A DNA stretch of 60,446 bases, taken from NCBI GenBank assembly GCA_022827095.1, contig JAJDTP010000024.1:1-60446 (forward strand). Direction: 5' to 3'. Below, in pieces: positions 930-58,893 of this stretch. A program made the translations under genes and the position numbers. Under the pieces are notes generated by a model. The model saw only the letters and a program-made list of their open reading frames with translations, had not been told where the DNA came from and searched no databases. The stretch's first letter is position 1; every line of letters begins with the position of its first letter. Origin of the DNA: Dehalococcoidia bacterium (GTDB taxonomy: Bacteria; Chloroflexota; Dehalococcoidia; Lucifugimonadales; UBA3495).

Positions 930-1835
930 TCAGCCTCCCGGCCGCGCGGTGCGGGGATCGAGCAGGTCCCGTAGCCCGTCCCCCAGCAGGTTGAACCCCA
1001 GCACCGCGATGAATATGGCCGCCCCCGGCAACAGCAACAGACGGGGCGCGGTTTGCAGATGCGGGCGGGCGTCGTTGAGCATCGCGCCCCATTCCGGCGT
1101 GGGCGGCTGCGCGCCCAGCCCCAGGAAATTGAGACCCGCGATGCCCAGGATGATCCAACCCACGTCCAGCGAAGCGATGACGATGATCGGGCCGATGATG
1201 TTGGGTGCAATGTGGCGCAGGATGATGCGCAGGTTGCCGGCTCCGGCGGCCCGGGCCGCCATCACGTACTCCATCTGTCGCGCCCCCAGGGTCACCCCGC
1301 GAATGATGCGGGCATGGCCCACCCACCAGACCGCACCGGCGGCCAGGAGCACGTTGAACAGGCCGGGCCCCAGCGCTCCGGCCACGGCCAGTGCCAGGAT
1401 CAGCGAGGGAAAGGCAAGGAGCAGGTCAACCACCCCCATCAGGGCGGTGTCCGGCCAGCCGCCGTGGTATCCGGAAAGCATCCCCACCGTCAGCGCGATG
1501 GTCATGCTGAGGGCCAGGGTGGCGGCGGCGGCCAACAGGGTCATGCGCGCCCCGTGAACAACCCGGCTGAAGGTATCCCGACCCAGATGGTCCGTGCCCA
1601 GCAGGTTTTCCGCTGAGGGTGGGAGCAATCGATCGGTCAGGTTGATCTTGGTGGGATCATCGAGGGGCAGCCAGGGAGATAACAACCCCGCCAGCAGCAG
1701 CGTCGCCACCACGAAGAAGCCCAGCGCAGTGCCCGGTTCCCGCAGCAGCGCGGCCCAGCGGCGTCGCCGGCGCGAGCCTCCGGCGATGGCCGGTGCGGAA
1801 GCGTCCGCGCCTATGGGTTGGGTACGAACTGCCAT
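930..1835 (-). CDS. ABC transporter permease, DppC/NikC/OppC type
   Basis: Inner-membrane permease of 301 residues for a nickel/oligopeptide-class ABC importer. A basic cytoplasmic N-terminus is followed by a first membrane helix at about 36-58, the family signature NLLGTDHLGRDTFSR around residue 77, and further hydrophobic segments. The ATPase-contact loop (EAA motif) is at about 190-212 (YVMAARAAGAGNLRIILRHI). The start lies 6 bases after the stop of the preceding permease gene, so the two are co-transcribed and probably translationally coupled. It is the last gene of the operon. The ATPase genes that usually follow are missing; beyond the stop is only transposon debris. Confidence 0.88.
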   Translation of the reverse strand: MAVRTQPIGADASAPAIAGGSRRRRRWAALLREPGTALGFFVVATLLLAGLLSPWLPLDDPTKINLTDRLLPPSAENLLGTDHLGRDTFSRVVHGARMTLLAAAATLALSMTIALTVGMLSGYHGGWPDTALMGVVDLLLAFPSLILALAVAGALGPGLFNVLLAAGAVWWVGHARIIRGVTLGARQMEYVMAARAAGAGNLRIILRHIAPNIIGPIIVIASLDVGWIILGIAGLNFLGLGAQPPTPEWGAMLNDARPHLQTAPRLLLLPGAAIFIAVLGFNLLGDGLRDLLDPRTARPGG

Positions 1836-1841
1836 GGGCCG

Positions 1842-2789
1842 CTACCGCTCCTCCCGCCCGAAGCGCAGGCGCGGATCGGCGACGCGCAGGGCGATGTCGG
1901 CGGCGAGGTTGACCAGCAGGACCACCACGGCGATGTAGGTCACGAACCCCTGCACCATTGGGTAGTCACGGGTCAGCGCCGCGCCTACCATCAACTGTCC
2001 CAGGCCGGGCCAGGTGAAGATGGTCTCCACGATGACGGCGCCGCTGAGCAGGTAGCCGAGGTTGACGCCGATGGCGCCGATGGCCGGCAGCAGCGCGTTG
2101 CGCAGGGCGTGCCGGAGGGACACGGTCTGCTCGGACAGGCCCTTGGCCCGCGCCGTCCGAATGTAGTCCTGCCCCAGCGTTTCCAGCATGCTGGCGCGGA
2201 TCAGCCGCATCAATTGGGCCATGGGCGCAAGAGACAGTGCGATGGCCGGCAGCACGACCTGTGTGGCAGAACCGTAGCCCAGGGCGGGCAGCCACGACAG
2301 TTTCACCGCAAACAATATGATCAGCCCGTAGGCCAGGACGTACGACGGCGCCGCCGCGCCCACCAGGGCGGCCAGGCGGGCCGACGTATCCAGGGCGCCG
2401 CCGCGGTGGCGCGCCGACAGTATCCCCATGGGGACGGCGACCAGCAGCGCCAGCGCCAGCGCGACTGCCGTGAGCAGGGCCGTGGGGACGGTGCGCCGGG
2501 CCAGCTGTTCGGCCACGGGCTGTTCCGTGAGGTAAGACCGCCCCATGTCGCCGGTCAGGGCCTGGGACACCCAGCGCACGTATTGCGCCGGCAAAGGAGC
2601 CTCCAGGCCGAGCTCGACGCGCATGGCCGCCACGGCCGCCGGGCTGGGCAGCTGGCCGGGGTTGCGCTGGCGCAGCACAATCTCGGCCGGGTCGCCCGGC
2701 GCCAGGTTCAACAGCGCAAAGCTGACCGCCGAGATGCCCAGCAGCAGCAGCGGCAGCGTGACCAGCCTTCGTACCAGGTATGCTCCCAT
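1842..2789 (-). CDS. ABC transporter permease, DppB/NikB/OppB type
   Basis: Inner-membrane permease of 315 residues. It begins MGAYLVRRLVTLPLLLLGIS, the usual first helix of this family, followed by the NLAPGDP motif near residue 28, a large external segment, and five more hydrophobic stretches. The EAA loop is at about 209-230 (YIRTARAKGLSEQTV). It lies 41 bases downstream of the binding-protein gene and 6 bases upstream of the second permease, the normal order for such operons. Nickel, cobalt-complex or peptide substrates are all possible from the family; the upstream cobalamin riboswitch favours a cobalt or corrinoid-related substrate. Confidence 0.88.
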   Translation of the reverse strand: MGAYLVRRLVTLPLLLLGISAVSFALLNLAPGDPAEIVLRQRNPGQLPSPAAVAAMRVELGLEAPLPAQYVRWVSQALTGDMGRSYLTEQPVAEQLARRTVPTALLTAVALALALLVAVPMGILSARHRGGALDTSARLAALVGAAAPSYVLAYGLIILFAVKLSWLPALGYGSATQVVLPAIALSLAPMAQLMRLIRASMLETLGQDYIRTARAKGLSEQTVSLRHALRNALLPAIGAIGVNLGYLLSGAVIVETIFTWPGLGQLMVGAALTRDYPMVQGFVTYIAVVVLLVNLAADIALRVADPRLRFGREER

Positions 2790-2830: not shown

Positions 2831-4564
2831 TTACTCGCTCAGTCCAATCCGGTGGTCGAAGAAATACAGGTTAGCCGGGTGGGGTTCAAAACCAGTGACC
2901 CGCTCACTGACGCCGTACACCATGTACATGTGCGCCACGGGCAGAAACGCGCTTTCGTCCGTAATCACCGCCAGAGCATCGCAGGCGATCTCCACCCGCT
3001 CGTGCGGGTCAACCGCAGCGCTGGCCTGAGCCACGATCTCCACCAATCCGGAATTGTCGTAATGGCCGTAGTTGTTGGCGCCGCTGCCGCTGGCGTCGGC
3101 CCGGAGACCGGCAAACTTGCTGACGTTACGCACCGGGTCTCCGGCTTCAATGACGTTGTTGTACCACCCAAAGAGGTCCCAGACGGGTTCCTTGACCGCG
3201 GACCATTCGGTGATGAGCACCTCGGCCTTGATGCCGACTTCAGCAAGCATCGCTTGGCCGGCTTCGGCCATGATGGGCAGCTGGTACCGCTGGGGGTAGC
3301 CGCCGATCACTATCTCCAGAGGCTGGCCGTCCTTTTCAACGATGCCGTCGCCGTCGGTGTCAGCGTAGCCGGCCTGAGCCAGCAGGTCGCGGGCCGCGTC
3401 CGGGTCGTAGCCCAGTGCGTGGACGCCGGGGCAGGATGCCATGTCTTCGGGTAGCAGGAGTTCCGCATAGGAGCCCGACCCTTCCGGAGCGACCAGAGCG
3501 GCGATAGCTTCCCGGTCGATGGCCTGGTCCACGGCCCGGCGCACCAGCGGGTCGGCCAGCGTTCCTCGCTCGAAATTCACCCACCACAGGACCAAGGCGA
3601 TACCCTTGCCGGCGGTGTGGCTGTGCATCCCCGGATGGGCGTTGATGGCCTCCACTCCCTCCGGTGATATGGTGACGGCAATATCAATGTCGCCGGCCTG
3701 CAGGGCCAGTTCCCGGCTGTTGGGGTCGGGGATGGCGATGTGTTCGATACCGGCCAATGGGGGAGCGCCGCCCCAGTAATCGTCGTTGGCCACGCTGCTG
3801 AGGCGTTCTTTCTGGATGTACTCCGTGGGAATGTAGGGGCCGGTCAGGGCGCGCGCCGCAATGAAATTGCCCTCTCCGGCAGCGTCGGCGGCCGCGGCAT
3901 CGGTGATGGCCACGGCGGGGACGGCGAACAGGCCCGGCAGCGTCGGTTGCGGAGCCGTAGTGACTACGGTGATGGAGTGGTCTCCCGTGACAGTCAGGGT
4001 GTCGATGGTCAACGACTCAGCCGACGCCGGCGACAACCGGATGGTCCTCTCCAGGGAAGCCTTGACCGCATCAGCGTCCATCACGTTTCCATTGTGGAAC
4101 TTGACATCGGACCGAAGGTCGATTTCCCAGGTCAATGGGTCCACCCGCGTGGCGGCCGTTGCCAGCCATGGTTCGGGACTGAGGTCGGTTGCCGAAAGGC
4201 GGAACAAGTTCTCCGACATTCCTGACTGGTTGGCGACCCAACCACTCTCCACCGGATCCAGGGGGCTATCCAGCCAGATGACGCCCGCTTTCAGCATGGG
4301 TCGGTCCACAACGGTCTCAGCCGCCGGCTCGTCCGTTGGTTGCGCGGGAGACGATGACTGCTCAGGCTGAGCCGGGACGGAGGTAGCGGCCGCCGGCTGG
4401 GGAACGGCGGCGGCCGGGGCCGTCGCCTCGGGCGCGCTGCCCGCCGCCGGTGGGGCCGGCTCGCTGGTCGCGGCGGGAGACCCGCAGGCCACCGCCAACA
4501 GGAACATCAGGCCCAGGGCTAATGGCAATGCAGTTCTGAAACTGTTCGAAAGTATGTTAGGCAT
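2831..4564 (-). CDS. ABC transporter substrate-binding lipoprotein, NikA/DppA/OppA type
   Basis: Predicted lipoprotein of 577 residues that captures the ligand outside the membrane. The start at 4564 is chosen for its GGAGGA ribosome site; it gives a signal peptide with a lipobox ending at Cys27 (LLAVACGS). A Pro/Ala/Glu-rich linker runs to about residue 105. The SBP family 5 fold follows, with a WEIDLRSDVKFHNGN segment and a late DTDGDGIVEKDG stretch resembling a calcium-binding loop. First gene of the importer operon, behind a cobalamin riboswitch. Cobalt or a cobalt chelate is therefore a reasonable inferred ligand, but the protein alone does not decide between metal and peptide. Confidence 0.85.
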   Translation of the reverse strand: MPNILSNSFRTALPLALGLMFLLAVACGSPAATSEPAPPAAGSAPEATAPAAAVPQPAAATSVPAQPEQSSSPAQPTDEPAAETVVDRPMLKAGVIWLDSPLDPVESGWVANQSGMSENLFRLSATDLSPEPWLATAATRVDPLTWEIDLRSDVKFHNGNVMDADAVKASLERTIRLSPASAESLTIDTLTVTGDHSITVVTTAPQPTLPGLFAVPAVAITDAAAADAAGEGNFIAARALTGPYIPTEYIQKERLSSVANDDYWGGAPPLAGIEHIAIPDPNSRELALQAGDIDIAVTISPEGVEAINAHPGMHSHTAGKGIALVLWWVNFERGTLADPLVRRAVDQAIDREAIAALVAPEGSGSYAELLLPEDMASCPGVHALGYDPDAARDLLAQAGYADTDGDGIVEKDGQPLEIVIGGYPQRYQLPIMAEAGQAMLAEVGIKAEVLITEWSAVKEPVWDLFGWYNNVIEAGDPVRNVSKFAGLRADASGSGANNYGHYDNSGLVEIVAQASAAVDPHERVEIACDALAVITDESAFLPVAHMYMVYGVSERVTGFEPHPANLYFFDHRIGLSE

Positions 4565-4671
4565 CTTTGTCCTCCAGGACGTCCCGTGGTTTTCCAATGA
4601 ACACCAACGCTCAAGCGAGTCCCAACTTCGCGGGGCCAGCGGGGCGGGGGCGCTGTCCGCGTAAGGGCAGC

Positions 4672-4701
4672 AAAAGACCCCGTCCGCACTGGTGAACGGG
4701 G
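4672..4701 (-). terminator. Terminator-like hairpin in the riboswitch leader
   Basis: On the minus strand a CCCCGT...ACGGGG stem (4678-4701) is followed by TCTTTT (4672-4677). It lies between the cobalamin riboswitch and the binding-protein start, where a transcription-terminating expression platform is expected. A second, longer hairpin (4718-4753, arms CTGTTGG and CCAACAG with an inner GGTTGC/GCAACC stem) sits just upstream and could be its alternative partner. Confidence 0.55.
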
Positions 4702-4784
4702 CTCGTGTTCGGGCGTCCTGTTGGGCGGTTGCAGATTCGCAACCTGCCAACAGATCTGCTTCACTCGTTCCGCGAAGTGCAGCT

Positions 4785-4990
4785 AGAGTACCCCTGATGG
4801 CAGGCTTCCTGGCTGATGGCTTTTAGCGACGCGTCTCCACCTTCCCATCCGCTGGGGCGGACAGTGGTTTTCATCGGCATCCTTTCGGGCAGGATGCCGC
4901 AAGAAGCGCGTCTCGCCAATTACAGTGGCGCGACCGCACCGGATTTTCACCGGATTTCCTTTTGTCCCGCGCTTTCCGACCAGGTGCCAA
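4785..4990 (-). promoter_or_regulatory. Cobalamin (B12) riboswitch
   Basis: On the minus strand the leader contains the conserved cobalamin aptamer pieces in the correct order. First comes the repeated CCGGTGAAAATCCGG core (complement at about 4938-4953), then the GCGCCACTGTA element (complement at 4921-4931), a GGGAAGG segment (complement near 4842-4848), and the B12 box AGCCAGGAAGCCTGCC (complement at 4799-4814). These match the family consensus closely. It would repress the downstream importer operon when adenosylcobalamin or a relative is plentiful, through the hairpin at 4672-4701. Confidence 0.88.
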
Positions 4991-5064
4991 CTGACGTCGA
5001 CAATAGATTGAAGCTACGGGCCACCAACAGGGGTTGGTTAGAGGGTTCAATTGTTAAGGATAAT

Positions 5065-5093
5065 ACCCTAGCACGACCGTCATGGGCAGTCAA
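5065..5093 (-). promoter_or_regulatory. Sigma-70-type promoter for the riboswitch operon
   Basis: On the minus strand TTGACT (complement of 5088-5093) is separated by 17 bases from TAGGGT (complement of 5065-5070). The spacing is ideal and the position is just upstream of the cobalamin riboswitch. The IS66-type element begins only 16 bases further upstream (5109), so the insertion spared this promoter but replaced whatever regulatory DNA lay beyond it. Confidence 0.5.
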
Positions 5094-5108: not shown

Positions 5109-6591
5109 GTAAGTGTTCAGACTTGAGGGGAAGCGAGGAGTTGTTTGCAGGTGGCGAGGGTGTTGAGGTCTTGGGCTCGCCAGGTGCTGAAGATTGACGC
5201 CAGTGTCATCTTGGTTTCGGTTCCCTGAGTTGAGTGGGCGCCGCCGCTGATCTTGCGGCTGATCACCACCGGTCGCAGTCTGCGCTCGGCGGCGTTGTTG
5301 TCCGCTGGCACTTCCGGATGGGCCACGAAGACGAAGAGTTCCCCGCATCGAGTGCGGGGCAGGCTCTTGATGTGATTGTTGATGCGTCGGCATAGCCTGG
5401 CCTGGGCCGCCGACGGGTCATCCAGGTAGGGGCGGCACAGCGCAGTCAGGCGACGTTCCAGGGCCAGTTGGGCGCTGCGCCGCTGCTGCTCTGCCGGGTG
5501 AGTGCAGGCTTTGGCCGGTTGGTAGAGTTGGTGGACCGCCTCAGCCCACTGGGCCAGCTGGAGATCGTCAGCGTAGAGGACGCGGAGGTCGTGGATGTCC
5601 CGCAGCAGAGCCTGCCCCTGGCTTGAACAGGGGTGGGCCCAGCAGCGCTGCTTGGGACCGTCATAGTGATGGCAGGCGGCATAGAAGTCGCTGACCAACA
5701 CGCCGGAGAATTCCTCGCTTAGGACTTCATCCACCACGGCCTTCCGCGACCCGGCCGCAGGAAGTAGCGTTCGGCGGGGGCGCTGAAGGTCCACACGTAA
5801 CCGTTCCGTCCGTCTTCCCTCCCGCCAATCGGTCTCATCGGCGTGGACTACCGGACTGCCTAGGATCCGTGCCACGATGTCGGTCATCATCCCCTGGGCC
5901 TTTTGGGCCACCCTTGGTGTGGCGGCCACGATGGCTCCCAGGCTGAGGCGCAGATCGTGCACGGCGTCCAAGTACCACTGGATGGTGCGGACCGGCAGCC
6001 GAGCCTCCTCCCGCAGGGCGGCAATCAGGCTGACCAGGTTGATCCCCAGGCGCTGCCGGCCCAGCGCCACCCTGTGCGGTCGCGCGGTGGGAACACACCG
6101 CCGTCGGCGCTGGGCACAGGCGCGAGCGATATAGACGTGCTCGGTCACCTGTGCCGTAACCGGGGCCAGGTCAATGACCTCCCGAGCGCGCTGTACCCAA
6201 CCACCGGCCAGACCAGTCCCGCAGTCGGGGCGCCGATCCAACGCGTGCTCCACCCGCTGGTCCGGCGTCATTCTGGCCCGGGCAAAGCCCTGGGGCCGAC
6301 GCTGGCGTGGCTTCCTGGGTCGGTCCGGTTTCTGGTCACCTTTGGGCTTCAAACCGGGCATACGGCCGGAGCTGCCCGATTTGGCCCGCCCTTCCAGCTG
6401 GGCAACCCGTTTCTCCAACTGATCTATGATCGCCTGCTGCCGGATGATGACGCCAATGAGCACATCCCGGTCAGCCGTCCTCAGATCAATCCCCCCGTCC
6501 ATCCCAGCTATATGACATAACCACCACGCCCAACGCCAGCCATCCTCAAACCAAGTTCCGCCAATTCACCTCACCAACCCTGAACAGTTGC
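5109..6591 (-). mobile_element. IS66-family insertion sequence, 1.48 kb
   Basis: The element has readable boundaries. One end begins GTAAGTGTTCAG at 5109; the other, on the opposite strand, begins GCAACTGTTCAG at 6591. The flanking octamers are GATCCAAC (5101-5108) and GAGCCAAC (6592-6599), 7 of 8 identical. This fits the 8-bp duplication known for IS66 elements, with ends starting GTAA. It carries a single transposase gene. Its ends are the same as those of the short repeat elements at 10445-10599 and 48212-48371. Confidence 0.8.
5117..6502 (-). CDS. IS66-family transposase with compensating frameshifts
   Basis: DDE transposase of 461 residues as read. It has an N-terminal coiled coil (RQQAIIDQLEKRVAQLE), a basic linker, a cysteine-bearing zinc-like region, and catalytic-domain motifs VVHADETDWREG, VLVSDFYAACHHYDG and ADNNAAERRLRP. 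Between about 5745 and 5815 the open frame gives an unrelated basic peptide, while the next frame gives GRNGYVWTFSAPAERYF, the expected IS66 sequence. One gained and one lost base therefore cancel out. An extra PCSSQGQA interrupts the usual RCWAHLLRDIHDL. The copy is probably inactive or carries sequencing errors. Confidence 0.8.
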   Translation of the reverse strand: MDGGIDLRTADRDVLIGVIIRQQAIIDQLEKRVAQLEGRAKSGSSGRMPGLKPKGDQKPDRPRKPRQRRPQGFARARMTPDQRVEHALDRRPDCGTGLAGGWVQRAREVIDLAPVTAQVTEHVYIARACAQRRRRCVPTARPHRVALGRQRLGINLVSLIAALREEARLPVRTIQWYLDAVHDLRLSLGAIVAATPRVAQKAQGMMTDIVARILGSPVVHADETDWREGRRTERLRVDLQRPRRTLLPAAGSRKAVVDEVLSEEFSGVLVSDFYAACHHYDGPKQRCWAHPCSSQGQALLRDIHDLRVLYADDLQLAQWAEAVHQLYQPAKACTHPAEQQRRSAQLALERRLTALCRPYLDDPSAAQARLCRRINNHIKSLPRTRCGELFVFVAHPEVPADNNAAERRLRPVVISRKISGGAHSTQGTETKMTLASIFSTWRAQDLNTLATCKQLLASPQV

Positions 6592-54011: not shown

Positions 54012-54085
54012 TGGCACCGGCGGAAGGAATCGAACCCTCGTTTTCGGTTTTGGAGACCGATGCGTTACCACTACACCACGCCGGT
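54012..54085 (-). tRNA. tRNA-Trp (anticodon CCA)
   Basis: The minus strand folds as a tRNA with acceptor arms ACCGGCG (complement of 54079-54085) and CGCCGGT, an anticodon stem TCGGT/ACCGA around loop CTCCAAA (anticodon CCA, Trp), and a T-loop GGTTCGATTCC. The 3' CCA is encoded (complement of 54012-54014). The D-stem GTGT/ACGC has one G-T pair. It lies between a methyltransferase gene and an IS1-type element. Confidence 0.93.
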
Positions 54086-58227: not shown

Positions 58228-58893
58228 TTACTGCGGTTGCTCGTCGCCCTGGCGGGTTTTCAGGATGAACCGATCCAGCAGGGCCCAGCCGCCCGGCACC
58301 GCCAGGCTCGCCACGATGAGCTTTGCCAGGTCGCCGGCGATGAACGGGAGCAGGCCGCACTGCCACACGTCTGCGCAGCCCCAGGCCTCCGCCGCGTTGG
58401 CCGGCAGGAACAGGTTCAACTGGATCAGGCCCGGCACGTAGAGCACGGCGTTGCCCAGCAGCATGGCCGCCAGGATCCAGGGACGGCGGTTCCATCCCCG
58501 TTGACACAGCCAGCCCACCAGCGCGGCCGCCGGTATGAACCCGACGATGTATCCGCCCGATGGCAGCAGCCAGAACCAGCCCGACGCTCCTCCAGCGAAG
58601 AACGGGAGGAACGCGCCCTCGATGGCGTAAAGCGCCAGCGCCAGCCCGCCGCGCCAGCCCCCCAGCATCGCGCCCACCAACAGAACCGCGAAGGTCTGCC
58701 CGGTGATCGGAACCGGGGTGAATCCCAACGGTATTTTGATCTGCGCGAACAGCGCCACCAGCAGGCTGCCGGCAACAACCAGGGCAGCGTCCCTGGCGAT
58801 GCGGCGTGCGCCGGCCGATTGGGGTAGTATCAGGTCCGCGAGGGTGCCCGGCAGCGGCGCGGATGGTAGGGGAACAGCGGTTCGCGTTTGCAT
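58228..58893 (-). CDS. bioY: Biotin transporter BioY (ECF S component)
   Basis: Membrane substrate-binding subunit of 221 residues for biotin uptake, with about six helices. The family signature is IPLGFTPVPITGQTFAVLLV (about 54-73), followed by GGWRGGLALALYAIEG, WLLPSGGYIVGFIPAAAL and LPFIAGDLAKLIVASLAVP. It needs the shared EcfAA'T module, not seen here, or acts alone. Its presence suggests that the cell imports biotin. The ATG has a weak AGGGC site. Confidence 0.9.
   Translation of the reverse strand: MQTRTAVPLPSAPLPGTLADLILPQSAGARRIARDAALVVAGSLLVALFAQIKIPLGFTPVPITGQTFAVLLVGAMLGGWRGGLALALYAIEGAFLPFFAGGASGWFWLLPSGGYIVGFIPAAALVGWLCQRGWNRRPWILAAMLLGNAVLYVPGLIQLNLFLPANAAEAWGCADVWQCGLLPFIAGDLAKLIVASLAVPGGWALLDRFILKTRQGDEQPQ

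Follow-up and report, generated by a model that had tools for sequence, protein, structure and literature searches.

Importers of the NikA type have been found behind B12 riboswitches before: the NikABCDE systems of Clostridium tetani and Desulfitobacterium hafniense lie downstream of such elements and have been read as cobalt importers (PMC2667541), and the nikA riboswitch of S. ovata has been assayed (PMC9600662). CbtJKL of Sinorhizobium meliloti, an ABC importer of cobalt, is preceded by an adenosylcobalamin riboswitch (PMC7689651), and RibXY of the Chloroflexi is an ABC importer under an FMN riboswitch that has no ATPase of its own (PMC3766115). As in the NikABCDE cases, the locus described here has a cobalamin riboswitch ahead of genes for a NikA-like lipoprotein and NikBC-like permeases, but it differs in the absence of NikD/NikE from cassettes of its type (34 loci), in a lipoprotein that scores far under the NikA cut-offs, in its Chloroflexota lineage and in having close paralogues that are zinc-linked. 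CbtJ is BtuF-like, whereas our locus encodes a family-5 solute-binding protein (SBP; PF00496) with Opp-type permeases (PF00528) and no FecCD. It resembles RibXY in its riboswitch control, its missing ATPase and its phylum, though not in ligand or permease family. The staphylopine importer CntABCDF of Staphylococcus aureus, solved with Ni and Co staphylopine, is likewise a family-5 system; it has its own ATPases and, unlike the operon in question, no riboswitch. Given these precedents, the principle of a NikA-type importer under a B12 riboswitch is not new, and the original prediction, made from the sequence letters, went too far in announcing a new role for this group of binding proteins. What is new is the missing ATPase, the Chloroflexota lineage and the zinc-linked sister copies; the first and last of these had escaped that prediction.

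The window, that is, the whole stretch of DNA analysed, is an entire contig of 60,446 bp from a 3.79 Mb metagenome-assembled genome. In all, 42 loci were compared, plus further loci taken genome by genome; those relatives that carry names are Chloroflexota of the SAR202/Dehalococcoidia type and Caldilineaceae, and many of their bins are presumably sponge-associated, to go by the bin names. The operon and its surroundings contain the following features:

5117..6502, minus strand: IS66-family transposase (PF03050, 101 bits)
5065..5093, minus strand: sigma70-like promoter, TTGACT-N17-TAGGGT, with an extended -10 (TGC ahead of the -10)
4782..5006, minus strand: cobalamin riboswitch aptamer, full length with peripheral domain (RF00174)
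4758..4783, minus strand: P13 hairpin GCTGCACTTCGCGGAACGAGTGAAGC, near-invariant across 10 leaders
4718..4753, minus strand: intermediate hairpin, a stable fold
4672..4702, minus strand: intrinsic terminator, stem GCCCCGTTC/GGACGGGGT plus TCTTTT, kept in 10/10 leaders
2831..4564, minus strand: family-5 solute-binding lipoprotein, 577 aa, of the NikA/CntA/DppA superfamily (PF00496, SBP_bac_5, 216.8 bits)
1842..2789, minus strand: permease PB, NikB/OppB-like, 315 aa (PF00528, BPD_transp_1; NF045470 336 bits, cut-off 350)
930..1835, minus strand: permease PC, NikC/OppC-like, 301 aa (PF00528, BPD_transp_1; NF045474 302, cut-off 300; TIGR02790 313, cut-off 358)

Using a covariance-model search, the aptamer was matched to RF00174 over model positions 1-189 with 73.2 bits (E 3.7e-16; gathering score 31.5), and it is the one cobalamin riboswitch that Rfam detects in the window. 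The same order of riboswitch and then lipoprotein is found in nine more close relatives, SAR202/Dehalococcoidia-type Chloroflexota, many of them presumably from sponges. An alignment of the window's leader with those of these nine orthologues (n = 10) shows conservation of the promoter, the aptamer core, P13 and the terminator, with a variable stretch from P13 to the terminator. The promoter hexamers lie at 5093-5088 (TTGACT) and 5070-5065 (TAGGGT), 17 nt apart; the pattern TTGACY-N17-TANNNT is kept in 9 of the 10 leaders, the hexamers being degenerate in the tenth (G019). Promoter, B12 aptamer and terminator-like stem had all been proposed in the original prediction and are upheld by these results, the aptamer both by its full-length match and by its retention in the related operons. 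The alternative hairpin proposed with them does exist, at 4753-4718, but it appears not to be essential, its retention being limited to the closest relatives. The promoter is intact and is immediately preceded by the IS66-family transposase, for which no clear terminal inverted repeats were found and which is absent upstream in the leaders of the relatives.

From the sequence, a kissing contact between P13 and loop L5 is predicted (TCGCG with CGCGG). An antiterminator pairing is possible between the terminator loop and 3' arm (4690-4684, AGTGCGG; 4681-4677) and 4782-4776 (CTGCACT) together with 4789-4785, and the CUGCACU of P13 is complementary to the AGUGCGG of the terminator loop and 3' arm in all ten leaders. 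Over these leaders 97.8% of the terminator cells and 97.5% of the antiterminator cells are paired, as against 26-50% for a slid control, with so little variation that there is almost no covariation; the use of covariation as proof of the leader platform was dropped for this reason. An enforced antiterminator lies 0.7-10 kcal/mol above the MFE, thermodynamics alone favouring the terminator state. Because of these two circumstances the on/off mechanism is put forward here as a model: the leader, of about 500 nt, would carry an adenosylcobalamin-type riboswitch in which ample B12 would lead the aptamer and P13 to sequester the antiterminator strand, letting the terminator form and stopping transcription ahead of the lipoprotein gene, while in B12 scarcity CUGCACU would pair with AGUGCGG, breaking the terminator so that the lipoprotein and both permeases would be made.

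The SBP_bac_5 lipoprotein and the two BPD_transp_1 permeases together make up a family-5 ABC importer, as originally predicted, though the permeases, at 2789-1842 and 1835-930, lie beyond the 2831-5093 stretch to which that prediction referred. The permeases are nearest to the NikB/NikC/Opp2 models, with NikB/NikC under the curated cut-offs, and the lipoprotein reaches 240 bits against NF045468 (nikA-like; cut-off 600) and 129 of the 393 bits set by another curated NikA cut-off. A nickel importer could be imagined from the NikA/B/C models, which score highest among the metal models, and from urease-like genes recognized by eye in the genome; we consider it very improbable, in view of the cut-offs missed, of E. 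coli NikA residues W398, Y402 and H416, which correspond to A, V and S in the lipoprotein (HMMER alignment to 8spm, in a region of low model confidence), and of a B12 control that does not fit nickel. The AF2 model of the lipoprotein (mean pLDDT 72) has a family-5 fold whose best solved relatives are of the NikA type, NikA, SaNikA, NikZ and CntA included. Structure comparison gave Z scores of 31.9 for 3t66, 30.6 for SaNikA, 30.2 for NikZ and 28.6 for DppA; because the DppA value is so close to the NikA-type ones, the modelled fold does not appear to decide the ligand. DppA's presence among the structural matches, and the fact that the superfamily is common to DppA and OppA, would also suit an ordinary peptide importer that had acquired its riboswitch by accident. 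This is highly unlikely, however, with the riboswitch kept before 10 orthologues and before distant homologues in cobN clusters, with other copies in zinc loci and with no Dpp ATPases nearby.

No ATPase gene lies between PC and the contig end in the window, and a Dpp-type ATPase (NikD/NikE) beside the cassette was found in 0 of the 34 loci that extend at least 2 kb beyond the second permease, PC. The few ABC ATPases near these loci have more similarity to a BtuD-like query, consistent with a place in other importers. Since none of the 34 loci holds its own, the ATPase would have to be supplied in trans. An orphan DppD/DppF pair at about 31.7-33.7 kb of another contig of the window's genome (G000:C11) was considered as the donor; as several relatives have a distant SBP5 match some kb away from it, it is kept only as a candidate.

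Four further cobalamin riboswitches are present in the window's genome, and each precedes one of the following: a CbiE-CobN-DUF7676-like-CbtA-chelatase group, a cobB-cobT-cobS-cobD-cobC-like set (gene names by eye), a second SBP5-permease-permease operon (L065) and a relative of the FhuF reductases (L066:7881-8708, on G000:C24), which does not by itself pass the PF06276 cut-off, as its FhuF-like homologues in L072 and L081 do. With this regulon, CobN and seven tetrapyrrole methylase matches, and no FecCD permease above the cut-off, the genome looks, from its gene content, like that of a B12 maker in need of cobalt and without an evident BtuC. The window operon itself has no adjoining B12 gene. 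SAR202 relatives carry homologous cassettes, with an SBP that is 38-45% identical and permeases that are about 57-66% identical, in the interval from cbiE-cobN to chlID, in many cases adjoining CbtA or FhuF-like genes (cbiE-cobN-...-CbtA-chlID). Where the upstream DNA was scanned it holds a riboswitch, immediately ahead of the SBP gene in L073 and L080, of FhuF-SBP in L072 and of an SBP2-type cassette in L081. The linkage to cobaltochelatase and B12 genes was seen in L072, L073, L080 and L143-L149, and in the cobN cluster of the window's own genome the slot of the cassette is occupied by CbtA, a proposed cobalt transporter.

These riboswitch-preceded homologues within cobaltochelatase clusters make cobalt, free or chelated, the best-supported substrate, as originally suggested. 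The corrinoid precursor suggested along with it, imported in place of a BtuFCD system, has on its side the cobalamin riboswitch, the lack of a FecCD permease above cut-off and a cassette in L071 that shares its gene cluster with a BtuFCD-like importer; it is improbable all the same, as the genome encodes B12 synthesis, the nearest copies have a zinc context and the family-5 fold is one for metal chelates and peptides, with no known B12 binder among the structural matches. From what is directly observed, namely the riboswitch, the conserved leader, the genes, the lack of an ATPase gene and the context in relatives, we infer the importer's ligand, including any specificity for cobalt, and put at roughly 60% the probability that the operon encodes a B12-repressed importer of Co2+ or of a small Co chelate, feeding B12 synthesis. 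In favour of cobalt would count the retained riboswitch, the cobN-cluster homologues, the CbtA slot, B12 genes with no BtuC, the NikA-type relatives and the NikABCDE precedent; against it would count the zinc context of close copies, a split between copies that is stronger at the N-terminus than in the binding domain, the unmatched NikA residues and the want of an encoded ATPase. The lipoprotein would capture the metal or chelate and deliver it to the PB-PC permease, powered by a pair of Dpp-type ATPases whose genes lie elsewhere, and the imported cobalt would go to a CobN-type cobaltochelatase.

Close homologues without the riboswitch come after genes for a COG0523 GTPase and a WD40 protein, a combination that marks COG0523 subfamily 5, reported to be zinc- and Zur-linked (PMC2770081); on that account these CobW-like neighbours were rejected as support for cobalt. 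Fur-family and ZnuA/AztC genes are found nearby in L070/L112, L074/L111 and others. A Zur-like palindrome, TTGATAY-N3-RTATCAA, first seen some 40 bp ahead of the GTPase genes, occurs at 13 sites in the window's genome as against 1 for a control pattern, before the GTPase gene and near genes that are AztCD-like and, by eye, ZnuB-like:

60930, 61831 and 61883 of G000:C32, 4662 of C11, and 9 more: palindrome sites by zinc-type genes

For counts over the SBP copies the pattern was slightly widened after inspection and up to 2 mismatches were allowed. It was then found with 20 of the 29 non-riboswitch copies (random stretches, 3.2%) and with 3 of the 11 riboswitch copies (L114, L120 and L122), and not in the window or its nearest relatives, L108-L111; within the window's own subclade, only the L120/L122 pair carries it. 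The association with riboswitch status has a Fisher p of 0.03, or 0.002 without the Caldilineaceae, values uncorrected for shared ancestry and for the widening after inspection. In many copies the palindrome falls within the reading frame, 12 bp in, and some of the signal could therefore stem from coding homology. In L111, L114, L120 and L122, a single permease pair has two SBP copies beside it, one of them with a riboswitch.

On the SBP tree the riboswitch copies are clustered (8 changes, versus 14.6 in shuffles, with 0 of 500 as low) and do not form one clade. Over the first 85 residues, riboswitch copies of different clades are 48-63% identical to each other and 26-41% to most other copies, the exception being L113_10001, a non-riboswitch copy with 46-62%; the mature domains are about 70-78% identical with either regulator. 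No metal-site signature is claimed from the residues that split the two sets, as the differences lie mainly in these first 85. An exchange of leader and signal segment together would explain why that segment is shared while the mature domains are alike either way. Since the regulator splits the first 85 residues more than the binding domain, the latter may have no particular specificity for cobalt.

The N-terminal segment that follows the regulator, the zinc-linked COG0523 subfamily with WD40, the palindrome frequency in non-riboswitch copies and the paired copies beside one PB-PC pair would all fit a broad importer of divalent metals or metallophores (Zn, Co and Ni, like CntA), induced by two shortages through a Zur-like repressor or the B12 riboswitch, with a ligand that is not specifically cobalt. 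We hold this to be rather unlikely: the cobN-cluster homologues point to cobalt, and zinc genes of the window's own genome bear the palindrome, while the window operon does not. A search of 21 genomes for an opine-metallophore dehydrogenase gave no match, but the controls were equally silent. A further idea, tentative and less likely than not, is that two metal-binding lipoproteins, the first controlled by a Zur-like zinc repressor and the second by a B12 riboswitch, are interchangeable partners of a single ATPase-less permease pair, and that regulation was rewired between zinc and B12 by swapping the leader and signal-peptide/linker onto a similar binding domain. The cassettes of L123-L127, named in their records as Caldilineaceae, are 70-74% identical and fall inside the window's SAR202 clade, with no riboswitch detected; transfer between lineages is the likely origin.

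The family-5 binding proteins form a very large group, most of whose members are annotated as peptide or nickel proteins; regulation and context give metal assignments that can be tested, here for a clade of uncultured marine, often sponge-associated Chloroflexota. If B12-repressed cobalt import is indeed the function, cobalt would join the substrates of the phylum's ATPase-less importers (compare RibXY), and the locus would offer a natural case of closely similar importers under zinc or B12 control.

The second SBP5-permease-permease operon of the window's genome (L065:7699-11499, on G000:C14), likewise led by a riboswitch and lacking an ATPase, encodes a lipoprotein that is only about 30% identical. 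The FhuF-like 2Fe-2S reductases at L072:11113-11961 and L081:3593-4459 adjoin SBP5 and cobaltochelatase genes; the FhuF-like protein may serve to reduce Co(III) chelates or corrinoids. A CbiX-like domain fused to a 2Fe-2S ferredoxin-like domain is encoded in a riboswitch-linked cluster at L071:14137-15006, and a small conserved protein repeatedly adjoins cobN (L067:3162-3596; L072:10272-10700, DUF7676/LFE_1968-like; L080:3880-4305). Elsewhere in the window, 54015-54085 is a tRNA gene by Rfam match, read by eye as Trp from its CCA anticodon, and 58228-58893 encodes what looks by eye like a BioY-like biotin transporter.
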